Assembly (NCBI GenBank): GCA_013214945.1
Contig: JABSRT010000022.1
Coordinates: 1 to 64,000 of the forward strand
Source: Gammaproteobacteria bacterium
GTDB lineage: Bacteria > Pseudomonadota > Gammaproteobacteria > Enterobacterales > Psychrobiaceae
Length of the DNA: 64,000 nt
Direction: 5' to 3'
A program made the position numbers and the translations under genes. Below, in pieces: positions 13,550-22,201 of this stretch. Position 1 is the stretch's first letter; the number at the start of each line of letters is the position of its first letter. The notes beneath the pieces are model-generated. The model did not search any database. It saw nothing but the letters and a program-made list of their open reading frames with translations, and had not been told where the DNA came from.

Positions 13550-13891
13550 TTAATCTTTTAACAAATCATCTGTTTTCGCCGCGCAAATAAAGTCATTTTT
13601 ATGTAAGCCTTTAATCGCATGAGTCCAGTAAGTTACTGTTACTTTGCCCCATTCAGTTAAGATGCCCGGGTGATGAAATTCAGCTTCAGCAAGCTCGCCA
13701 ACTTTATTGGTAAACGCTAAGGCGAGTTTAAAGTTTTTAAATTTGAATTCACGCTCTAGTTGCATAACGCCATCGCGTACCACAGGGACCCAGTCAGGGA
13801 TCATTTTTATTAGTTCGGCTAACTCTTGATCTGAAACTTGAGGGGCATCTGCCTGACAGGCCTCACATTGTTGTGCACTTAAATTAGACAT
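13550..13891 (-). CDS. phhB: Pterin-4a-carbinolamine dehydratase PhhB
   Basis: A 113-residue pterin-4a-carbinolamine dehydratase. The active-site segment [15 protein letters not shown], followed by [18 protein letters not shown], is characteristic. It dehydrates 4a-hydroxytetrahydropterin made by phenylalanine hydroxylase so the cofactor can be recycled. AAAGGAT precedes the ATG. It starts 10 bp after phhA on the same strand, a standard phhAB operon. Confidence 0.94.
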
Positions 13892-13901
13892 TATTTATCC
13901 T

Positions 13902-14711
13902 TTAACTTGCGAGTGGTTGTTGAGTCGTTTTTTTTGCCTTAAACAGCGGTTGATGCAACCCAAGTTTTTTGGCTTTTTCGACTAATGACAATAAATCCAT
14001 ATTTGATATATCAAAGAGATCATCAATGGAGTTGATCGTGTGGTAAATGGGTTGAATAATATCAATCCGATACGGCGTGCGAAAGACGTTGAGCACATCG
14101 AGCTCGATTATTTGTGGTTGGCCCGAGTAAACATACTGGGTTTCCCCTGGACTTGATAAGATGCCACCGCCATAAATCTTAATTTTTTCGTTAACTTTCA
14201 TCAAGCCAAATTCGACAGTAAACCAGTATAGTCGAGCTAAGTAAACACGATCTTGTTTATTGGCTTGCAAGCCAATTTGGCCGTATTTATGGGTGAAATC
14301 AGCAAAGGCTTGGTTGGTTAACATGCCACAGTGGCCAAATATCTCATGAAAAATATCTGGCTCGGTCAGGTAATCAAAGTCTTCGCTGCTACGAATAAAA
14401 GTAGCGACCGGAAATTTTTTATCGGCTAACAGTGCGAAAAACTTATCGAAGCTGATCAAGGCTGATACTGGCGCACATTCCCAACCTGTAGTGGCACGTA
14501 ATACCTTGCTGACATCTTCAAGTTGCGGAATACGATCGATTGGTAATTGCAGTTTTTCGAGCCCTTGCAGGTACTCATCACAAGCTTTGCCTTTAATGCA
14601 TTCAAGTTGGCGGGTGATTAATTGGGACCAGATCTTATTTTCTTGATCGCTCCAATTGATGAAACCATTTTCATCGGACTGTTTAGAAATGTATTGAGAT
14701 GACTTTGACAT
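13902..14711 (-). CDS. phhA: Phenylalanine-4-hydroxylase PhhA
   Basis: A 269-residue monomeric bacterial phenylalanine hydroxylase without the mammalian regulatory domain. The iron ligands are visible as His122 and His127 in FHEIFGHCGML and Glu168 in FTVEFGLM. It converts phenylalanine to tyrosine with tetrahydropterin and O2, feeding the homogentisate pathway encoded from 16.7 kb. AGGG precedes the ATG. A TyrR-like half-conserved box lies about 160 bp upstream. Confidence 0.96.
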   Translation of the reverse strand: MSKSSQYISKQSDENGFINWSDQENKIWSQLITRQLECIKGKACDEYLQGLEKLQLPIDRIPQLEDVSKVLRATTGWECAPVSALISFDKFFALLADKKFPVATFIRSSEDFDYLTEPDIFHEIFGHCGMLTNQAFADFTHKYGQIGLQANKQDRVYLARLYWFTVEFGLMKVNEKIKIYGGGILSSPGETQYVYSGQPQIIELDVLNVFRTPYRIDIIQPIYHTINSIDDLFDISNMDLLSLVEKAKKLGLHQPLFKAKKTTQQPLAS

Positions 14712-15011: not shown

Positions 15012-16415
15012 TTACAACGAAATTACACCAAGTGCGTTAAGGAATACCACCACGATCCCGATTGGAGTCAGATAACGCATGGTCAATTGCCATAACTTAA
15101 AGCATATACCTTTGCCCAGTCCTAATTCCTGTTCGGCAACTTTGCTGTTGATTACCCATGCTGAGAAAATTGCGACTAATAAACCGCCTAATGGCATCAT
15201 TAGGTTTGCGGTTAAGAAGTCGATAAGCTCAAAGAAGTTCTTGCCGAATATTTTGTGTTGTTCCCAGATATTAAATGAGAACACGGTACCGACACCTAAG
15301 ATCCATAATACAAAACCCGAAGTAACACAGGCTTTAAGGCGTGAGTATTTACATTTTTCGGTTAACCAAGAAACGGCCGGTTCAATTAAAGATATTGCCG
15401 AGGTTAGTGCTGCGATAGACAACATCACAAAGAACAGGGTGCCAAATACGATACCAAAAGGCATTTGACCAAAGGCGATAGGCAAGGTCACGAAGATTAG
15501 ACCTGGACCTGCGCCCGGCTCTAATCCGTAAGCGAACACGATTGGGAAAATTGCCATGCCAGCGAGGAGGGCAACCACGGTATCTACTATCGCAACTGCG
15601 ATTGATGTTTTTACAATTGACGTGTCTTTCGGTAAATAAGAGCCGTATGTCATGATCGCGCCAGACGCTAAGCTTAAGGTGAAAAATGCATGACCTAACG
15701 CGACTAACACGCTTTCGGTGCTCAGTTTGCTAAAATCAGGTGCAAACAAAAACTCAACACCTTCAATGAAGTGGCCTGTGCTCATAGCGTAACCGACCAT
15801 GATCAAAATAAGAATCAACAAGCCCGGCATCAAATAGTTAACGGCTTTTTCTAAACCAGCGTTAACGCCTCGACCCACGATATACATTGTCATGATAACC
15901 ACTAGAGTGCTCCAAGAGAGCAAACGAATAGGATCGGCTAACATATCTCCAAACATGGCACCGGCTTGATCGGGTGTTATATCAGTAAAAGCACCGCTGC
16001 CTGAGGTGAAAATATAAGAAACGGCCCAGCCTGCAATCACGGTGTAGAAGCTTAAAATTAAAAAACCGGTAATAACGCCCATCCAGCCAACACCCTTCCA
16101 AAACTTACTGGCCTTGGCTTCTAGCGCTAAAGCTGCCATCGCATCTGCGGGATTTTTCTGGGCGCGGCGACCAATCATAATTTCGGCCATCATCACGGGA
16201 ATGCCGATCAATAAAATACAGGCTAAGTAAACTAAAACAAAAGCGCCACCACCATTTTCACCAGTGATATAGGGAAATTTCCAAATATTACCCAGGCCAA
16301 CGGCTGAACCTGCCGCCGCCAGAATAAACGCCATTCGGCTCGACCACTGGATCCGTTTTTTACCTGTTGCAACGCTATCGACGGGCACGCTGCCAGCCAC
16401 TGTTAAATCAGACAT
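15012..16415 (-). CDS. Sodium-dependent NSS family transporter
   Basis: A 467-residue neurotransmitter:sodium symporter homologue with about 11-12 membrane segments. The TM1 signature GSAVGLGNIWKFPY, which forms the Na+/substrate site, is intact. Bacterial NSS proteins such as LeuT and TnaT import amino acids with Na+. It lies between phhA and hpd and its promoter region is shared with the divergent hpd operon, so tyrosine, phenylalanine or a related compound is the likely cargo (inference). AAGGAAAG precedes the ATG. It has a dedicated terminator. Confidence 0.92.
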   Translation of the reverse strand: MSDLTVAGSVPVDSVATGKKRIQWSSRMAFILAAAGSAVGLGNIWKFPYITGENGGGAFVLVYLACILLIGIPVMMAEIMIGRRAQKNPADAMAALALEAKASKFWKGVGWMGVITGFLILSFYTVIAGWAVSYIFTSGSGAFTDITPDQAGAMFGDMLADPIRLLSWSTLVVIMTMYIVGRGVNAGLEKAVNYLMPGLLILILIMVGYAMSTGHFIEGVEFLFAPDFSKLSTESVLVALGHAFFTLSLASGAIMTYGSYLPKDTSIVKTSIAVAIVDTVVALLAGMAIFPIVFAYGLEPGAGPGLIFVTLPIAFGQMPFGIVFGTLFFVMLSIAALTSAISLIEPAVSWLTEKCKYSRLKACVTSGFVLWILGVGTVFSFNIWEQHKIFGKNFFELIDFLTANLMMPLGGLLVAIFSAWVINSKVAEQELGLGKGICFKLWQLTMRYLTPIGIVVVFLNALGVISL

Positions 16416-16760: not shown

Positions 16761-17837
16761 ATGGCAGATTTATTTGAAAATCCGATGGGATTAGATGGTT
16801 TTGAATTCGTTGAATTTACCGCGTTGGAACGAGGTATTCTCGAGCCGGTTTTTGAACTGATGGGTTTTAGCTTAGTGGCCAAACATCGTTCTAAAGCCGT
16901 TGAATTATGGCGTCAGGGAAATATTAACTTTATTACTAATTATGAGCCAAAAAGCCACGCCGCTTATTATGCACAAGAGCATGGCGCCTCTGCTTGTGGC
17001 ATGGCTTTTCGTGTTAAAGACGCTGAGTTTGCTTACACCAGTGCGTTAGAAAAAGGCGCTCAACCGGTTCATATTGACACTGGCATCATGGAATTACGCT
17101 TACCGGCGATTAAAGGCATTGGCGGTGCAACCCTCTACCTTATTGATCGTTATGAAGAAGGTAAGTCAATTTATGACATCGACTTTATTTGGATCGATGG
17201 CGTTGACAAGAATCCAGAAGGCTGTGGTTTTCATACCTTAGATCACCTTACGCATAACGTGTACCGTGGCAGAATGGATCATTGGGCTAACTATTATGAA
17301 GATCTGTTTAACTTCCGCGAAATTCGCTATTTCGACATTAAAGGTGAATACACTGGGTTGTTATCAAAAGCATTAACAGCGCCCGATGGCAAAATCCGTA
17401 TCCCGCTTAATGAAGAAGCTGGCAGCGGTGGCCAAATTGAAGAGTTCTTAATGAAATACAACGGTGAGGGTATTCAGCATATTGCCTTTGCTTGTGATGA
17501 TTTGTTCGCTTGTTGGGATCGTCTCAAAACTAAGGGCATAAAGTTCATGACCGCGCCTCCAGAAACCTATTATCAAATGCTCGATCAGCGTTTGCCTGGG
17601 CATGGCGAACCTATTGGCGAACTACAATCACGTGGCATTTTGCTGGACGGCACCACCGAAGGTGGAGAAACCAAGCTACTATTGCAAATATTCTCAGATA
17701 CCTTGCTGGGTCCAATATTTTTTGAGTTTATTCAACGTAAAAAAGACGACGGTTTTGGTGAGGGCAACTTTAAAGCCTTGTTTGAATCGATTGAACGTGA
17801 CCAAATTGAGCGTGGTATTATTGGTAAAACAGCCTAG
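16761..17837 (+). CDS. hpd: 4-hydroxyphenylpyruvate dioxygenase
   Basis: A 358-residue enzyme of the two-domain VOC fold, matching Pseudomonas-type Hpd. The three Fe(II) ligands are in place: His162 (LDHLTH), His240 (GIQHIAF) and Glu322 (IFFEFIQR). It converts 4-hydroxyphenylpyruvate to homogentisate. A purine-rich AGGAG precedes the ATG. It is the first gene of the hpd-VOC-fahA operon, with two MarR-type operators and a LiuR-like palindrome upstream. Confidence 0.97.
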
Positions 17838-17847
17838 GGGATAACAC

Positions 17848-18414
17848 ATGAATATTCAACGAATTCATCATGTCGCTTACCGTTGTAAAGATGCTAAAAC
17901 CACGGTAAATTTTTATCGTGATTTACTCGATATGGATTTTTTATTGGCGATTGCAGAAAACGAAGTGCCATCGACCAAAGAGCCTGATCCTTATATGCAT
18001 GTTTTTTTAGATGCAGGTCAGGGCAATGTCTTAGCCTTTTTTGAAATTCCTAATTCTCAAGCGATGGGCAAAGATCTTAATACGCCGGAGTGGGTCCAGC
18101 ATATTGCGTTTGAAGTTGGCACGATGGATGAACTATTAGCGGCCAAAGACAAATTGATTGCGGCGGGGTTAAGCGTGCTTGGCCCGACCGATCACACCAT
18201 TTTTAAATCAATTTACTTCTTTGATCCTAACGGTCACCGCATTGAATTGGCGGTTAACACGGCAAAACCTGGTATGTTAGATGAACTAAAACGTGTGGCA
18301 CCAGCGATGTTGGACGAATGGGCTATAACAAAAAAAGCCCCTCAGCACGCTGCTTGGTTACATAATGGCGACGATTTCCCGAGTGCATCACATTCTACAG
18401 GAGAAAAAATATGA
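17848..18414 (+). CDS. VOC family protein, candidate homogentisate ring-cleaving enzyme
   Basis: A 188-residue single-module vicinal oxygen chelate protein. A 2-His-1-Glu metal site is visible: His8 (RIHHVAYR), His85 (VQHIAFEV) and Glu133 (GHRIELAV). The segment TDHTIFKSIYFFDPNGHRIEL (His116, Tyr123) is like extradiol dioxygenases. The C-terminal 50 residues are an extension beyond the usual glyoxalase fold. It lies 10 bp after hpd and overlaps fahA by 4 bp, exactly where hmgA sits in the Vibrio hpd operon. A role as homogentisate dioxygenase is an inference. It could instead be an accessory lyase or isomerase. Confidence 0.85.
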   Translation: MNIQRIHHVAYRCKDAKTTVNFYRDLLDMDFLLAIAENEVPSTKEPDPYMHVFLDAGQGNVLAFFEIPNSQAMGKDLNTPEWVQHIAFEVGTMDELLAAKDKLIAAGLSVLGPTDHTIFKSIYFFDPNGHRIELAVNTAKPGMLDELKRVAPAMLDEWAITKKAPQHAAWLHNGDDFPSASHSTGEKI

Positions 18415-19421
18415 AACTTGCAAGCATTAAGGCAGGTCGAGACGGCGCGTTATATGTGGTTAAAAGTGATTTAACCACCATGGTTTCAGCGCAAGACATT
18501 GCGCCGACAATGCAAGCAGCATTAGACGACTGGGCAGCGATTGAACCCTTGTTAAACGCTCGTTCTCAAGCGTTAGAGTCTGGCGTAATAGCCGGTGAAA
18601 CATTTGACCAAACCGCTTGTGCTTCACCATTACCACGGGCATATCAATGGGCCGATGGCAGCGCTTATGTTAACCATGTTGAGTTAGTGCGCAAAGCACG
18701 TAATGCTGAAATGCCAGCGACTTTTTGGACCGAACCATTGATGTATCAAGGTGGTTCAGACACATTTTTAGCGCCTCATGATCCGATTGTAATGCCGCAA
18801 AGCGAAGGGTTTGGCATTGATTTTGAAGCTGAAATAGCCGTGATCACCGATGATGTTCCGATGGGCGTCGATGCCGATGACGCACTGAACTATGTTCGTT
18901 TGGTGATGTTAGTAAATGACGTCTCGCTACGAGGTTTAATTCCTGGAGAATTAGCTAAAGGTTTTGGTTTTTTCCAGTCAAAACCATCGAGTGCCTTTAG
19001 TCCTGTTTGTGTCACGCCACAAGAGTTAGGCGAAACATGGCAAGGTGGTAAGTTATCATTGCCATTACAGTCTCATTTTAATGGCGAGCTGTTTGGCAAG
19101 CCAGATGCTGGCATTGACATGACTTTCCATTTTGGTGAATTAATTGCTCACGCCGCTAAAACCCGTCCGTTAGCTGCTGGCACCATTATTGGTTCTGGTA
19201 CCGTATCGAACAAACTCAATGATGGCCCGGGTAAATCTGTGCTAGACGGTGGGGTTGGTTACAGCTGTATCGCTGAAGTTCGAATGATTGAAACCATTGA
19301 ACAAGGCAAGCCGAGTACTGCGTTTATGGATTTTGGTGATTCAATTAAGATTGAAATGTTTGACCAACAAAATAAATCAATTTTTGGTCAAATTGATCAG
19401 ACAGTCACTAAATCCGAGTAA
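18411..19421 (+). CDS. fahA: Fumarylacetoacetate hydrolase family protein
   Basis: A 336-residue FAH-fold hydrolase with the metal-binding acidic residues in IDFEAEIAV and LVNDVSLR and the glycine-rich IGSGTVSNK near residue 265. It splits fumarylacetoacetate to fumarate and acetoacetate, the last step of tyrosine degradation. The start overlaps the VOC stop codon (ATGA) and AGGAG precedes it, which indicates translational coupling. A terminator follows the gene. Confidence 0.92.
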   Translation: MKLASIKAGRDGALYVVKSDLTTMVSAQDIAPTMQAALDDWAAIEPLLNARSQALESGVIAGETFDQTACASPLPRAYQWADGSAYVNHVELVRKARNAEMPATFWTEPLMYQGGSDTFLAPHDPIVMPQSEGFGIDFEAEIAVITDDVPMGVDADDALNYVRLVMLVNDVSLRGLIPGELAKGFGFFQSKPSSAFSPVCVTPQELGETWQGGKLSLPLQSHFNGELFGKPDAGIDMTFHFGELIAHAAKTRPLAAGTIIGSGTVSNKLNDGPGKSVLDGGVGYSCIAEVRMIETIEQGKPSTAFMDFGDSIKIEMFDQQNKSIFGQIDQTVTKSE

Positions 19422-19450: not shown

Positions 19451-19485
19451 ACAGGTCTCGGTGTTTTTCATCGGGACCTGTTTTT
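19451..19485 (+). terminator. Intrinsic terminator between fahA and maiA
   Basis: ACAGGTCTCGGTG pairs with CATCGGGACCTGT (11 of 13 positions) around five Ts, followed by TTTTT. It sits between two genes of the same pathway, so maiA may be expressed by read-through or from its own promoter. Confidence 0.65.
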
Positions 19486-19522
19486 GTTAAAGTGTTATAA
19501 TTCAATCAATGAGATAGCTCCT

Positions 19523-20164
19523 ATGATTTTATATGATTACTGCCGTTCATCCGCGTCATACCGCGTTAGAATTGCGCTCAATTTAAAACAAATACCTTAC
19601 CAGCAAATAGCCATTAACTTAGTCACTGGTGAACAATGCTCGGCGTCACACACACAACGTAATGCTCAGCAATTAGTACCGGCGATCGATGATAACGGCG
19701 TTAAGCTGACGCAGTCTTTGGCTATTTGTGAATACCTTGATGAGGCTTATTTTCAAACGCATCAACTTATTTATGGTAATGCCGCGCAGCGCAGCGAAAT
19801 TAGAGCGTTTGCATTAGCGATTGCCTGTGAAACAGCTCCGGTTAACAATCTGCGGGTATTAAAGTACTTAGTAGCTGAGATGGCGGTTGATGAAGATAAG
19901 AAATTACAATGGTATCAGCATTGGGTTAACACCACGTTCACCGCATTAGAAGCGCAATTAGCCGCACGTACTGTGCAATCAACGTTTTGTTTTGGTGAGC
20001 TGCCATCGCTCGCTGATGTGTGTTTAATTCCGCAAATATTTAACGCCAAACGCTTTCATATCGACATGAGTGCTTACCCCATTCTGAGTGAAATTGATCG
20101 GCAGTGCCAGCGTATTGCAGCGTTTGCTAAGGCGCATCCCGACCAACAAGCCGACGCCCAATAA
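19523..20164 (+). CDS. maiA: Maleylacetoacetate isomerase MaiA
   Basis: A 213-residue zeta-class glutathione S-transferase. The signature YDYCRSSASYRVRIALNLK contains the active-site serines, followed by PAIDDNGVKLTQSLAICEYLDE, the glutathione-binding cis-Pro and Ser region. It isomerises maleylacetoacetate to fumarylacetoacetate using glutathione. The ATG at 19523 matches the family start. A longer frame from 19484 would begin inside the terminator stem. A weak GAGAT is the only ribosome-binding candidate. Confidence 0.93.
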   Translation: MILYDYCRSSASYRVRIALNLKQIPYQQIAINLVTGEQCSASHTQRNAQQLVPAIDDNGVKLTQSLAICEYLDEAYFQTHQLIYGNAAQRSEIRAFALAIACETAPVNNLRVLKYLVAEMAVDEDKKLQWYQHWVNTTFTALEAQLAARTVQSTFCFGELPSLADVCLIPQIFNAKRFHIDMSAYPILSEIDRQCQRIAAFAKAHPDQQADAQ

Positions 20165-20323: not shown

Positions 20324-20779
20324 TTATTTACTCGTCGGTTCGAGCAAGCCACTTAACTTCAGGGTTAAGCTTTTTAATTGCAGGCGCTCTGACGTCGTTA
20401 ACCCCTCGAGCAATCGTAATTCTTGTGCTTGCACTAAAGGTATAATCTCTTGGTACAAAGCTTTACCTTTAGTTGTGAGGTTTAATCGATTGGTGCGACG
20501 GTCAGTATCGCTGGTATGTTGTGACAGCACACCTGACGCCATTAGTTTGCTAATGGCTCGGCTCACTTGCATTTTATCGAGTCGAGTAAATAGGCAGATA
20601 TCACGCGCTGATATTTCACTGTGCTGGCCGACGGTCGCTAAAATACGCCATTGAATTTTTGACAAGTCATATTTTTTGTATATTTGGGCAATAAACTCAC
20701 TCATTTGTTGAGCCAAGATCGAAAACTGGTAAGGGAAAAAACCATTAAGATCTAATAGTACTTCATCATTGATAGCCAT
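20324..20779 (-). CDS. MarR family transcriptional regulator
   Basis: A 151-residue MarR protein with the winged-helix core (SARDICLFTRLDKMQVSRAISKL) and the wing DTDRRTNRLNLTTKG. It is divergent from the aromatic aminotransferase gene. The shared promoter holds two copies of a 20-bp operator that also occurs twice before hpd. It is therefore the likely autoregulated repressor of the aromatic catabolic island, with a pathway intermediate such as 4-hydroxyphenylpyruvate or homogentisate as a plausible ligand (inference). Confidence 0.9.
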   Translation of the reverse strand: MAINDEVLLDLNGFFPYQFSILAQQMSEFIAQIYKKYDLSKIQWRILATVGQHSEISARDICLFTRLDKMQVSRAISKLMASGVLSQHTSDTDRRTNRLNLTTKGKALYQEIIPLVQAQELRLLEGLTTSERLQLKSLTLKLSGLLEPTSK

Positions 20780-21010: not shown

Positions 21011-22201
21011 ATGTTTGAACATCTTAATGCTTTACCCGCAGATCCGATCCTTGGTTTGATCACTGCATGTAATCAAGACAGTAATCCGAATAAAGTCGAC
21101 CTAGGGGTTGGGGTTTATAAAGATGAGTCTGGTCATACTCCTATTTTGCAGTGTGTTAAAACCGCTGAACAATTTAGAACCGATACTGAAACATCGAAAG
21201 TATATATCGGCCCCGCGGGAGACGCTGGTTTTAATCGCCAAATGAGCTCGCTTATATTCGGTGAGCATCAAGTTCTTGAGCAAAACCGTAGCCGTACCTT
21301 GTCAACCCCTGGCGGTACTGGGGCGCTGCGCGTTGCAGCCGAGTTTATTAAGGCCTGTAAAAGTGATGCAACTATTTGGGTCAGTAACCCAACGTGGGCT
21401 AATCACCAGAGCTTATTCAATGCGGCTGGCGTTAAAGTAGCATCTTATCCATATTACGATTATGAAACTAAGACGTTAGACTTTTCTGCAATGATGGCGA
21501 CATTGTCACAAGTTGGTCCCGGTGATGTTGTGTTACTGCACGCTTGTTGTCATAACCCTAGTGGCATGGACTTAACTCAAGAGCAATGGCAGCAGGTTAC
21601 AGCGCTGGCCAAGCAACAAGGTTTTACGCCGTTAATTGATATGGCATATCAAGGTTTTGGTCAAGGTTTAGAACTCGATGCCTATGGTCCACGTCTAATG
21701 GCCAATGAGTTGCCTGAAGTATTACTGTGCAGCTCGTGTTCAAAGAATTTTGGCCTGTACCGTGAACGTATTGGCGCTTTTACGCTGGTAGCCAAAGATA
21801 GCGTGCGGGCCGATATTTCATTTTCAGTCGCACTTGCTGTTGTGCGAGGTATTTACTCGATGCCGCCAGCGCACGGCGCGGCATTAGTTAATACTATTTT
21901 GAGTTCAGATGAATTAACTGGGCAATGGCATAACGAATTAGCGGTAATGCGGGAACGCATAGCCTTTAATCGTCAAATGCTGGTGGATAAACTCATTGCC
22001 AATGGCGTTGAACGCGACTTTAGCTTTATTACTCGTCAATCGGGCATGTTTTCATTTTTGGGCATAACACCAGAGCAGGTTGCACGACTAATGAATGATT
22101 ACAGTATTTATATGGTTGATTCATCACGAATTAGCATTGCTGGAATTAGCCGAAACAATGTCGACTACTTAGCTAAATCGATTAGCGAAGTCATAAAATA
22201 A
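21011..22201 (+). CDS. tyrB: Aromatic amino acid aminotransferase
   Basis: A 396-residue class I aminotransferase of the AspC/TyrB branch. The substrate motif VDLGVGVYKDESG is present. The PLP lysine is in SSCSKNFGLYRERIG, and the conserved NPSG is in HACCHNPSGMD. Its neighbours (hpd, phhA, a MarR regulator with shared operators) point to tyrosine to 4-hydroxyphenylpyruvate as the physiological reaction. Sequence alone does not exclude aspartate activity. A strong terminator follows. Confidence 0.9.
   Translation: MFEHLNALPADPILGLITACNQDSNPNKVDLGVGVYKDESGHTPILQCVKTAEQFRTDTETSKVYIGPAGDAGFNRQMSSLIFGEHQVLEQNRSRTLSTPGGTGALRVAAEFIKACKSDATIWVSNPTWANHQSLFNAAGVKVASYPYYDYETKTLDFSAMMATLSQVGPGDVVLLHACCHNPSGMDLTQEQWQQVTALAKQQGFTPLIDMAYQGFGQGLELDAYGPRLMANELPEVLLCSSCSKNFGLYRERIGAFTLVAKDSVRADISFSVALAVVRGIYSMPPAHGAALVNTILSSDELTGQWHNELAVMRERIAFNRQMLVDKLIANGVERDFSFITRQSGMFSFLGITPEQVARLMNDYSIYMVDSSRISIAGISRNNVDYLAKSISEVIK

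Follow-up and report, generated by a model that had tools for sequence, protein, structure and literature searches.

The 188-residue protein encoded between hpd and fah in the DNA analysed here is very probably (with a probability of about 0.92) the homogentisate 1,2-dioxygenase of the tyrosine pathway, where it replaces the unrelated cupin enzyme HmgA. The gene lies in a window of 64,000 nucleotides (positions 1 to 64,000 of contig JABSRT010000022.1, assembly GCA_013214945.1) and encodes a member of the VOC/glyoxalase fold. Gene order, protein family, conserved residues, the lack of an HmgA match in the genome and the complementarity of the two genes across sampled genomes are all observed directly. 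The genes of the window that bear on the pathway are as follows.

13550..13891, minus strand: small ORF adjoining phhA; its homologues adjoin phhA homologues in two relatives (L001, L002)
13902..14711, minus strand: phhA, phenylalanine 4-monooxygenase, which feeds tyrosine (TIGR01267, 316.2 bits; cut-off 264.75)
15012..16415, minus strand: sodium-dependent transporter, divergent from hpd (NF037979, 120.7 bits; cut-off 50)
16761..17837, plus strand: hpd, homogentisate-forming 4-hydroxyphenylpyruvate dioxygenase (TIGR01263, 386.6 bits; cut-off 277)
17848..18414, plus strand: VOC-family protein of 188 residues, proposed homogentisate 1,2-dioxygenase (ORF; PF00903; match to PDB 9u42; invariant residues)
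18411..19421, plus strand: fah, fumarylacetoacetase-family hydrolase of the 336-residue type (PF01557 and PF18288; match to PDB 3lzk)
19484..20164, plus strand: maiA, maleylacetoacetate isomerase (TIGR01262, 244.6 bits; cut-off 171.05)
20324..20779, minus strand: MarR-family regulator (PF12802 and other Pfam matches)
21011..22201, plus strand: aromatic amino acid transaminase, tyrosine to 4-hydroxyphenylpyruvate (NF006719, 569.7 bits; cut-off 377)

The small ORF is presumably phhB, pterin carbinolamine dehydratase. The transporter possibly carries aromatic amino acids and the MarR regulator perhaps controls the tyrosine pathway; a comparison of loci showed MarR-like genes near hpd and the VOC gene in many relatives too. 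The end of hpd (17837) is 10 bases upstream of the VOC ORF, and the VOC stop and the fah start overlap as ATGA (18411-18414). An earlier note, made from the sequence of this DNA, had placed a 188-residue VOC protein between hpd and fah, in an operon supplying the steps on both sides of ring cleavage. Both statements stand: the plus-strand ORF at 17848-18414 matches PF00903 and is followed, after fah, by maiA; hpd and maiA score above curated cut-offs and fah carries PF01557 and PF18288, with none of the five NCBIfam models listed for it at its own cut-off.

The earlier note had also described the operon as devoid of a cupin-type hmgA, and had called for a search of the whole genome. That search, over 4,699,491 bases (4.70 Mb) in 59 contigs with a completeness of 100, gave no match to PF04209, to TIGR01015 or to a profile (A1) built from two long and three short HmgA sequences. 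Profile A1 detects HmgA in two genomes that contributed members to it (G020, G031), as well as in G052 and five further genomes outside the profile; in the family to which the source belongs it matched none of nine genomes. An HmgA hidden elsewhere in the source genome, which the note had named as a refutation, was rejected after all three profiles failed to find a match. The VOC gene is present there in one copy.

The protein itself consists of a single domain of the VOC/glyoxalase fold (PF00903, 70.1 bits; Pfam cut-off 20.6). PF04209 is not among its three Pfam matches, and neither TIGR01015 nor TIGR01262 (the GST-fold maleylacetoacetate isomerase) is among the 25 listed of 30 NCBIfam matches, none of the 25 reaching the cut-off of its model. 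With 22 bits against a cut-off of 120 (TIGR00068), it is not a glyoxalase I by the curated threshold; against the two-domain extradiol dioxygenases (TIGR03211) it scores 43.7 bits, the cut-off being 320.2. A model of the protein was obtained with AlphaFold2 (pLDDT 86.4, pTM 0.77).

Alignment by phmmer to catechol 2,3-dioxygenase (PDB 1mpy) pairs H85 with H214, H116 with H246, Y123 with Y255 and E133 with E265. These residues of 1mpy we take to be metal ligands or second-sphere residues. H8 falls outside the alignment and is taken as the third metal ligand by its position just before the first strand (E9-13 in the AlphaFold2 model); the adjoining H7 is equally invariant. No variation is seen at H7, H8, H51, H85, H116, Y123 or E133 across the 97 aligned rows, a number that counts the window protein and includes one gene twice (L088, L089). 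The predicted metal site is formed by H8, H85 and E133, with H116 and Y123 in the second sphere, and the five residues that had been named at the outset are thus all in place: every row retains them, four have a partner in 1mpy, and H8 is assigned by position.

The closest known structure is PDB 9u42, the top Foldseek match (58% identity over 169 columns, E 6.3e-23, TM 0.79/0.88), released on 2025-07-23 under the title 'Crystal Structure of Homogentisate 1,2-Dioxygenase from Acinetobacter in Complex with Zn ion'. Its sequence matches that of the window protein with 225.7 bits (E 3.4e-66), and a profile of the family, searched against the PDB, finds 9u42 alone at E <= 1e-10 (296.8 bits). The two proteins have the same fold and the alignments show the site residues conserved, but 9u42 comes from a different organism (Acinetobacter). 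The molecule record is named 'Glyoxalase', and the title is therefore the depositors' claim as to the enzyme. No paper describing 9u42 or a VOC homogentisate dioxygenase was found, by title or by the start of the abstract, in the open-access literature. With a named structure deposited, the VOC type is no new kind of enzyme, though it occurs widely and has gained little recognition.

Type I extradiol dioxygenases (1mpy, TIGR03211; homoprotocatechuate 2,3-dioxygenase) share the VOC fold, and 1mpy shares with the window protein an aligned site of His, His, Tyr and Glu; those enzymes comprise two VOC modules, cleave catechols and are about 300 residues long (307 in 1mpy), as against 188 here. The L-DOPA dioxygenase of Streptomyces sclerotialus (6on1, 6on3) resembles it as a chain of about 145 residues with a Foldseek E of about 1e-8, but is only some 20% identical and acts on a catechol-type substrate. 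LinE and PcpA, VOC hydroquinone 1,2-dioxygenases, cleave the ring of a para-diol, a substitution pattern that homogentisate shares, and are larger, two-domain proteins with substrates other than homogentisate. Cupin HmgA (TIGR01015; PDB 1ey2, 3zds), whose fold is that of the cupins, has the same inferred reaction and in a short form of about 380 residues stands where the VOC gene does, between hpd and fah; it has no detectable sequence relation to the 188-residue VOC protein and is roughly twice as long.

The sharing of one slot by two unrelated proteins is evident in four genomes of the same order as the source, from two genera (L083-L086), in which the order is hpd, a cupin HmgA of 376-381 residues, fah and maiA. 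Since fah and maiA of these genomes are homologues of those in the source genome, it follows that the VOC gene occupies the slot of the short HmgA.

The distribution of the two genes across genomes was determined in a sample of 148 genomes from the order, with HmgA identified by TIGR01015, the VOC family by a profile (A2, E <= 1e-30) and hpd by scores above the TIGR01263 cut-off. HmgA was found in 58 genomes (in two of them above the TIGR01015 cut-off), VOC in 15 and hpd in 71. Among the 71 genomes with hpd, 57 have HmgA only, 13 have VOC only, one has both and none has neither. The overlap expected by chance is 11.4 genomes, against the one seen (hypergeometric P 2e-13); counted by genus, there are 17 with HmgA, eight with VOC and one with both (P 2e-5), kinship being incompletely corrected for in either test. 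The sole double genome (G052) carries hpd-HmgA-fah-maiA and hpd-VOC clusters on separate contigs. The mutual exclusion that the earlier note had proposed to survey is thus near-perfect in the order, holding for 70 of 71 hpd-bearing genomes.

A sample of 370 genomes from the class, in which first-look candidates were scored partially in some genomes (e.g. 16(4)), gave 60 with hpd: 47 with HmgA only, 10 with VOC only, none with both and three with neither (G202, G236, G481). Two of the 10 VOC-only genomes (G239, G345) hold just a sister VOC family, which scores 165-169 bits against 295-346 for the other genomes and lies away from hpd; counting the family proper alone, eight genomes are VOC only and five have neither. 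A further ring-cleaving enzyme, a broken pathway or missed matches must be allowed for in these five. HmgA occurs in 12 class genomes in which hpd was not found, and VOC in one (G279); G279 and G079 both carry the VOC gene and lack a full match to hpd.

The sister family itself (L122, 6643-7125, minus strand; L123, 6652-7134, plus strand) is 45-47% identical to the window protein, has the same site residues and stands away from hpd; it was found in two hpd-bearing genomes where the HmgA search gave no match. A more distant second paralogue (L100, 6229-6657; 36% identical, 113 bits) occurs in a genome (G090) that also has a normal hpd-VOC pair.

Looked at from the side of the VOC gene, the picture is similar. 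Relatives of the protein were sought across a genome collection; 582 were confirmed, of which the best 80 loci were used. Two of these (L046, L071) share one genome and several lie on short contigs. In none of the 80 was an HmgA homologue found. Fifty VOC-bearing genomes from this set were tested for HmgA, picked before the result was known in a way that favoured isolates and spread: 45 gave no match and five have the gene. Record titles divide the fifty into 30 isolates, 26 of them with no HmgA match, and 20 metagenome-assembled genomes (MAGs) or uncultured assemblies, 19 of them with none, where absence is the weaker observation. The five exceptions are four Microbulbifer and one Parvularcula, in which HmgA lies apart from the VOC locus, clustered with fah, maiA or both.

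These distributions bear on the possibility that the VOC protein has only a helper role, glyoxalase-like or in quinone detoxification, and that homogentisate is cleaved by an unrecognised, third kind of dioxygenase. Weak NCBIfam matches to glyoxalase I, Fos thiol transferases and methylmalonyl-CoA epimerase lend this some colour, as do the three hpd-bearing class genomes with neither HmgA nor VOC. Those matches, however, are far below curated cut-offs (25 listed of 30 families), mutual exclusion with HmgA in 70 of 71 hpd-bearing genomes is not what one would expect of a helper, and the nearest structure is titled a homogentisate dioxygenase. We consider a helper role very unlikely.

The genes that surround the VOC gene in its relatives bear on the pathway. 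Among the best 80 of 582 loci, 70 have an hpd homologue, 55 a fah of the type seen in the window, five a fumarylacetoacetase of a long type, and 76 one or more of the three. A chance position of the VOC gene was rejected on the frequency of hpd. In five congeners of the source (G016, G041, G061, G079 and G139, the last with both of its copies) the VOC gene adjoins a fumarylacetoacetase of about 440 residues, six loci in all (L089, L091, L105-L108), with no hpd homologue seen beside it. The long enzyme of G041 was read from the ORF list; that of G016 (L089), the only one tested, scores 541.2 bits with TIGR01266 (cut-off 375.3). The order in two class genomes (G273, G451) is hpd, long fumarylacetoacetase, VOC gene, maiA. 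The VOC genes of four other genomes (family f7: G006, G072, G134, G147; L093, L095, L101, L104) lie in stretches, as fetched, without hpd or fah, and hpd is found elsewhere in these genomes.

A homologue of maiA is present at 26 of the best 80 of 582 loci, and 30 have homologues of hpd and fah with none of maiA at 1e-10. The latter figure, and the fact that VOC enzymes include isomerases, would suit a maleylacetoacetate isomerase that works without glutathione, or some other helper at the fumarylacetoacetase step. Yet such a role would leave the genome still without a homogentisate dioxygenase, and it is with HmgA that the VOC gene is complementary; moreover, maiA homologues do accompany the gene at those 26 loci, and the operon in the window has a maiA of its own above the curated cut-off. 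On account of that maiA the isomerase was rejected as the identity of the window protein, and we judge the whole of this alternative highly improbable.

The loci without hpd may point to other routes. Among the best 80 of 582 there are 10, of which eight have an FAD hydroxylase, close to the VOC gene in seven; the four hydroxylases tested score 548.9-863.2 bits with NF006002 (cut-off 416). Pairs of a VOC gene and an FAD aromatic hydroxylase, with no hpd, were seen at L049, L060, L062, L064, L068, L071, L075, L079 and L124. Kordiimonas sediminis has one VOC copy with hpd (L046) and another with the hydroxylase (L071). One hydroxylase homologue is found close to a gene of the sister family (L122) as well, and the link is therefore not unique to the main VOC family. 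The hydroxylase loci perhaps represent another entry into homogentisate, such as 6-hydroxylation of 3-hydroxyphenylacetate as a putative substrate; according to the title of a reference cited in PMC11945678, P. putida uses the homogentisate pathway for 3-hydroxyphenylacetate.

That some VOC copies adjoin a hydroxylase of unassigned substrate could be taken to mean that the protein opens the ring of another diol, e.g. catechol, gentisate or hydroxyquinol. Its site matches that of catechol 2,3-dioxygenase, and the single-domain L-DOPA dioxygenase (6on1, 6on3) is among its fold neighbours. Against this, the hpd homologues at 70 of the best 80 loci and the TIGR01266 fumarylacetoacetase of a congener fit homogentisate and its products, and make another diol extremely unlikely as the substrate.

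Taken together, the exchange of genes within one slot, the complementarity with HmgA, the association of the VOC gene with two families of fumarylacetoacetase and the 58%-identical 9u42 argue for a non-orthologous replacement of HmgA. This had been the reading offered from the sequence of the window, and it gains from each of the four.

From these data we infer the substrate, metal and product of the 188-residue protein, along with the roles of its residues and its oligomeric state. The small VOC-fold protein, probably an oligomer, would bind a divalent metal via H8, H85 and E133; Fe(II) is expected, Zn being present in the Acinetobacter crystal. Homogentisate and O2 would bind to the metal, and H116 and Y123 would play the parts that their counterparts have in type I extradiol enzymes. 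Cleavage of the ring between the carbon that bears the side chain and the neighbouring hydroxylated carbon would yield maleylacetoacetate. MaiA would then convert maleylacetoacetate to fumarylacetoacetate, which Fah would split.

The history of the cluster appears to be one of movement. In a tree of VOC proteins, the window protein groups with those of two MAGs labelled Nitrincolaceae (L001, L002; support 99/95), while copies from congeners fall elsewhere. The two MAGs share with the source the order hpd-VOC-fah-maiA-MarR, and their hpd is 90% identical. Given this grouping and the different neighbours of the VOC gene in congeners, horizontal exchange or replacement of the whole pathway cluster in the source species is likely.

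Work on Acinetobacter baumannii provides a further point of contact. PMC7646211 reports that no hmgA homologue was found in strain AB4353; hmgC and hmgR of that strain flank a gene whose product has a type I ring-cleaving dioxygenase domain, and in 2020 this gene was judged probably non-functional, a verdict that speaks against the present reading. According to PMC9431530, disruption of hmgA by Tn2006 accompanies pyomelanin in A. baumannii, and the pigment is lost when hmgA is supplied on a plasmid; should this hmgA and the VOC gene be one and the same, the result would be genetic evidence in a relative. An hmgA reference of 633 bases is given in PMC11945678; it is too short for cupin HmgA, and may be the VOC gene or maiA.

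We think it probable, more broadly, that the VOC-fold homogentisate 1,2-dioxygenase is a second, independently evolved enzyme; that among Gammaproteobacteria and in some Alphaproteobacteria, often marine ones, it is a main alternative to HmgA; that it moves between clusters; and that it is used on the hpd route into homogentisate as well as on one through an FAD hydroxylase, perhaps from 3-hydroxyphenylacetate. Two unrelated proteins, with very probably the same reaction, replace each other in one operon slot, and the VOC enzyme would close the gap at ring cleavage in the phenylalanine and tyrosine breakdown of bacteria without hmgA. The absence of a cupin hmgA need not then amount to a pyomelanin-forming defect, as it was read for an A. 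baumannii strain in 2020 (PMC7646211). The libraries searched know the protein as a general VOC/glyoxalase: neither Pfam nor NCBIfam has a specific model for the family among the matches seen (25 listed of 30 weak matches), and one relative (L126) has no NCBIfam match at 1e-10. If our reading is true, genomes with the VOC gene alone can be misread as blocked at homogentisate and, given the lack of a specific model, many annotations could be put right by a single new one.
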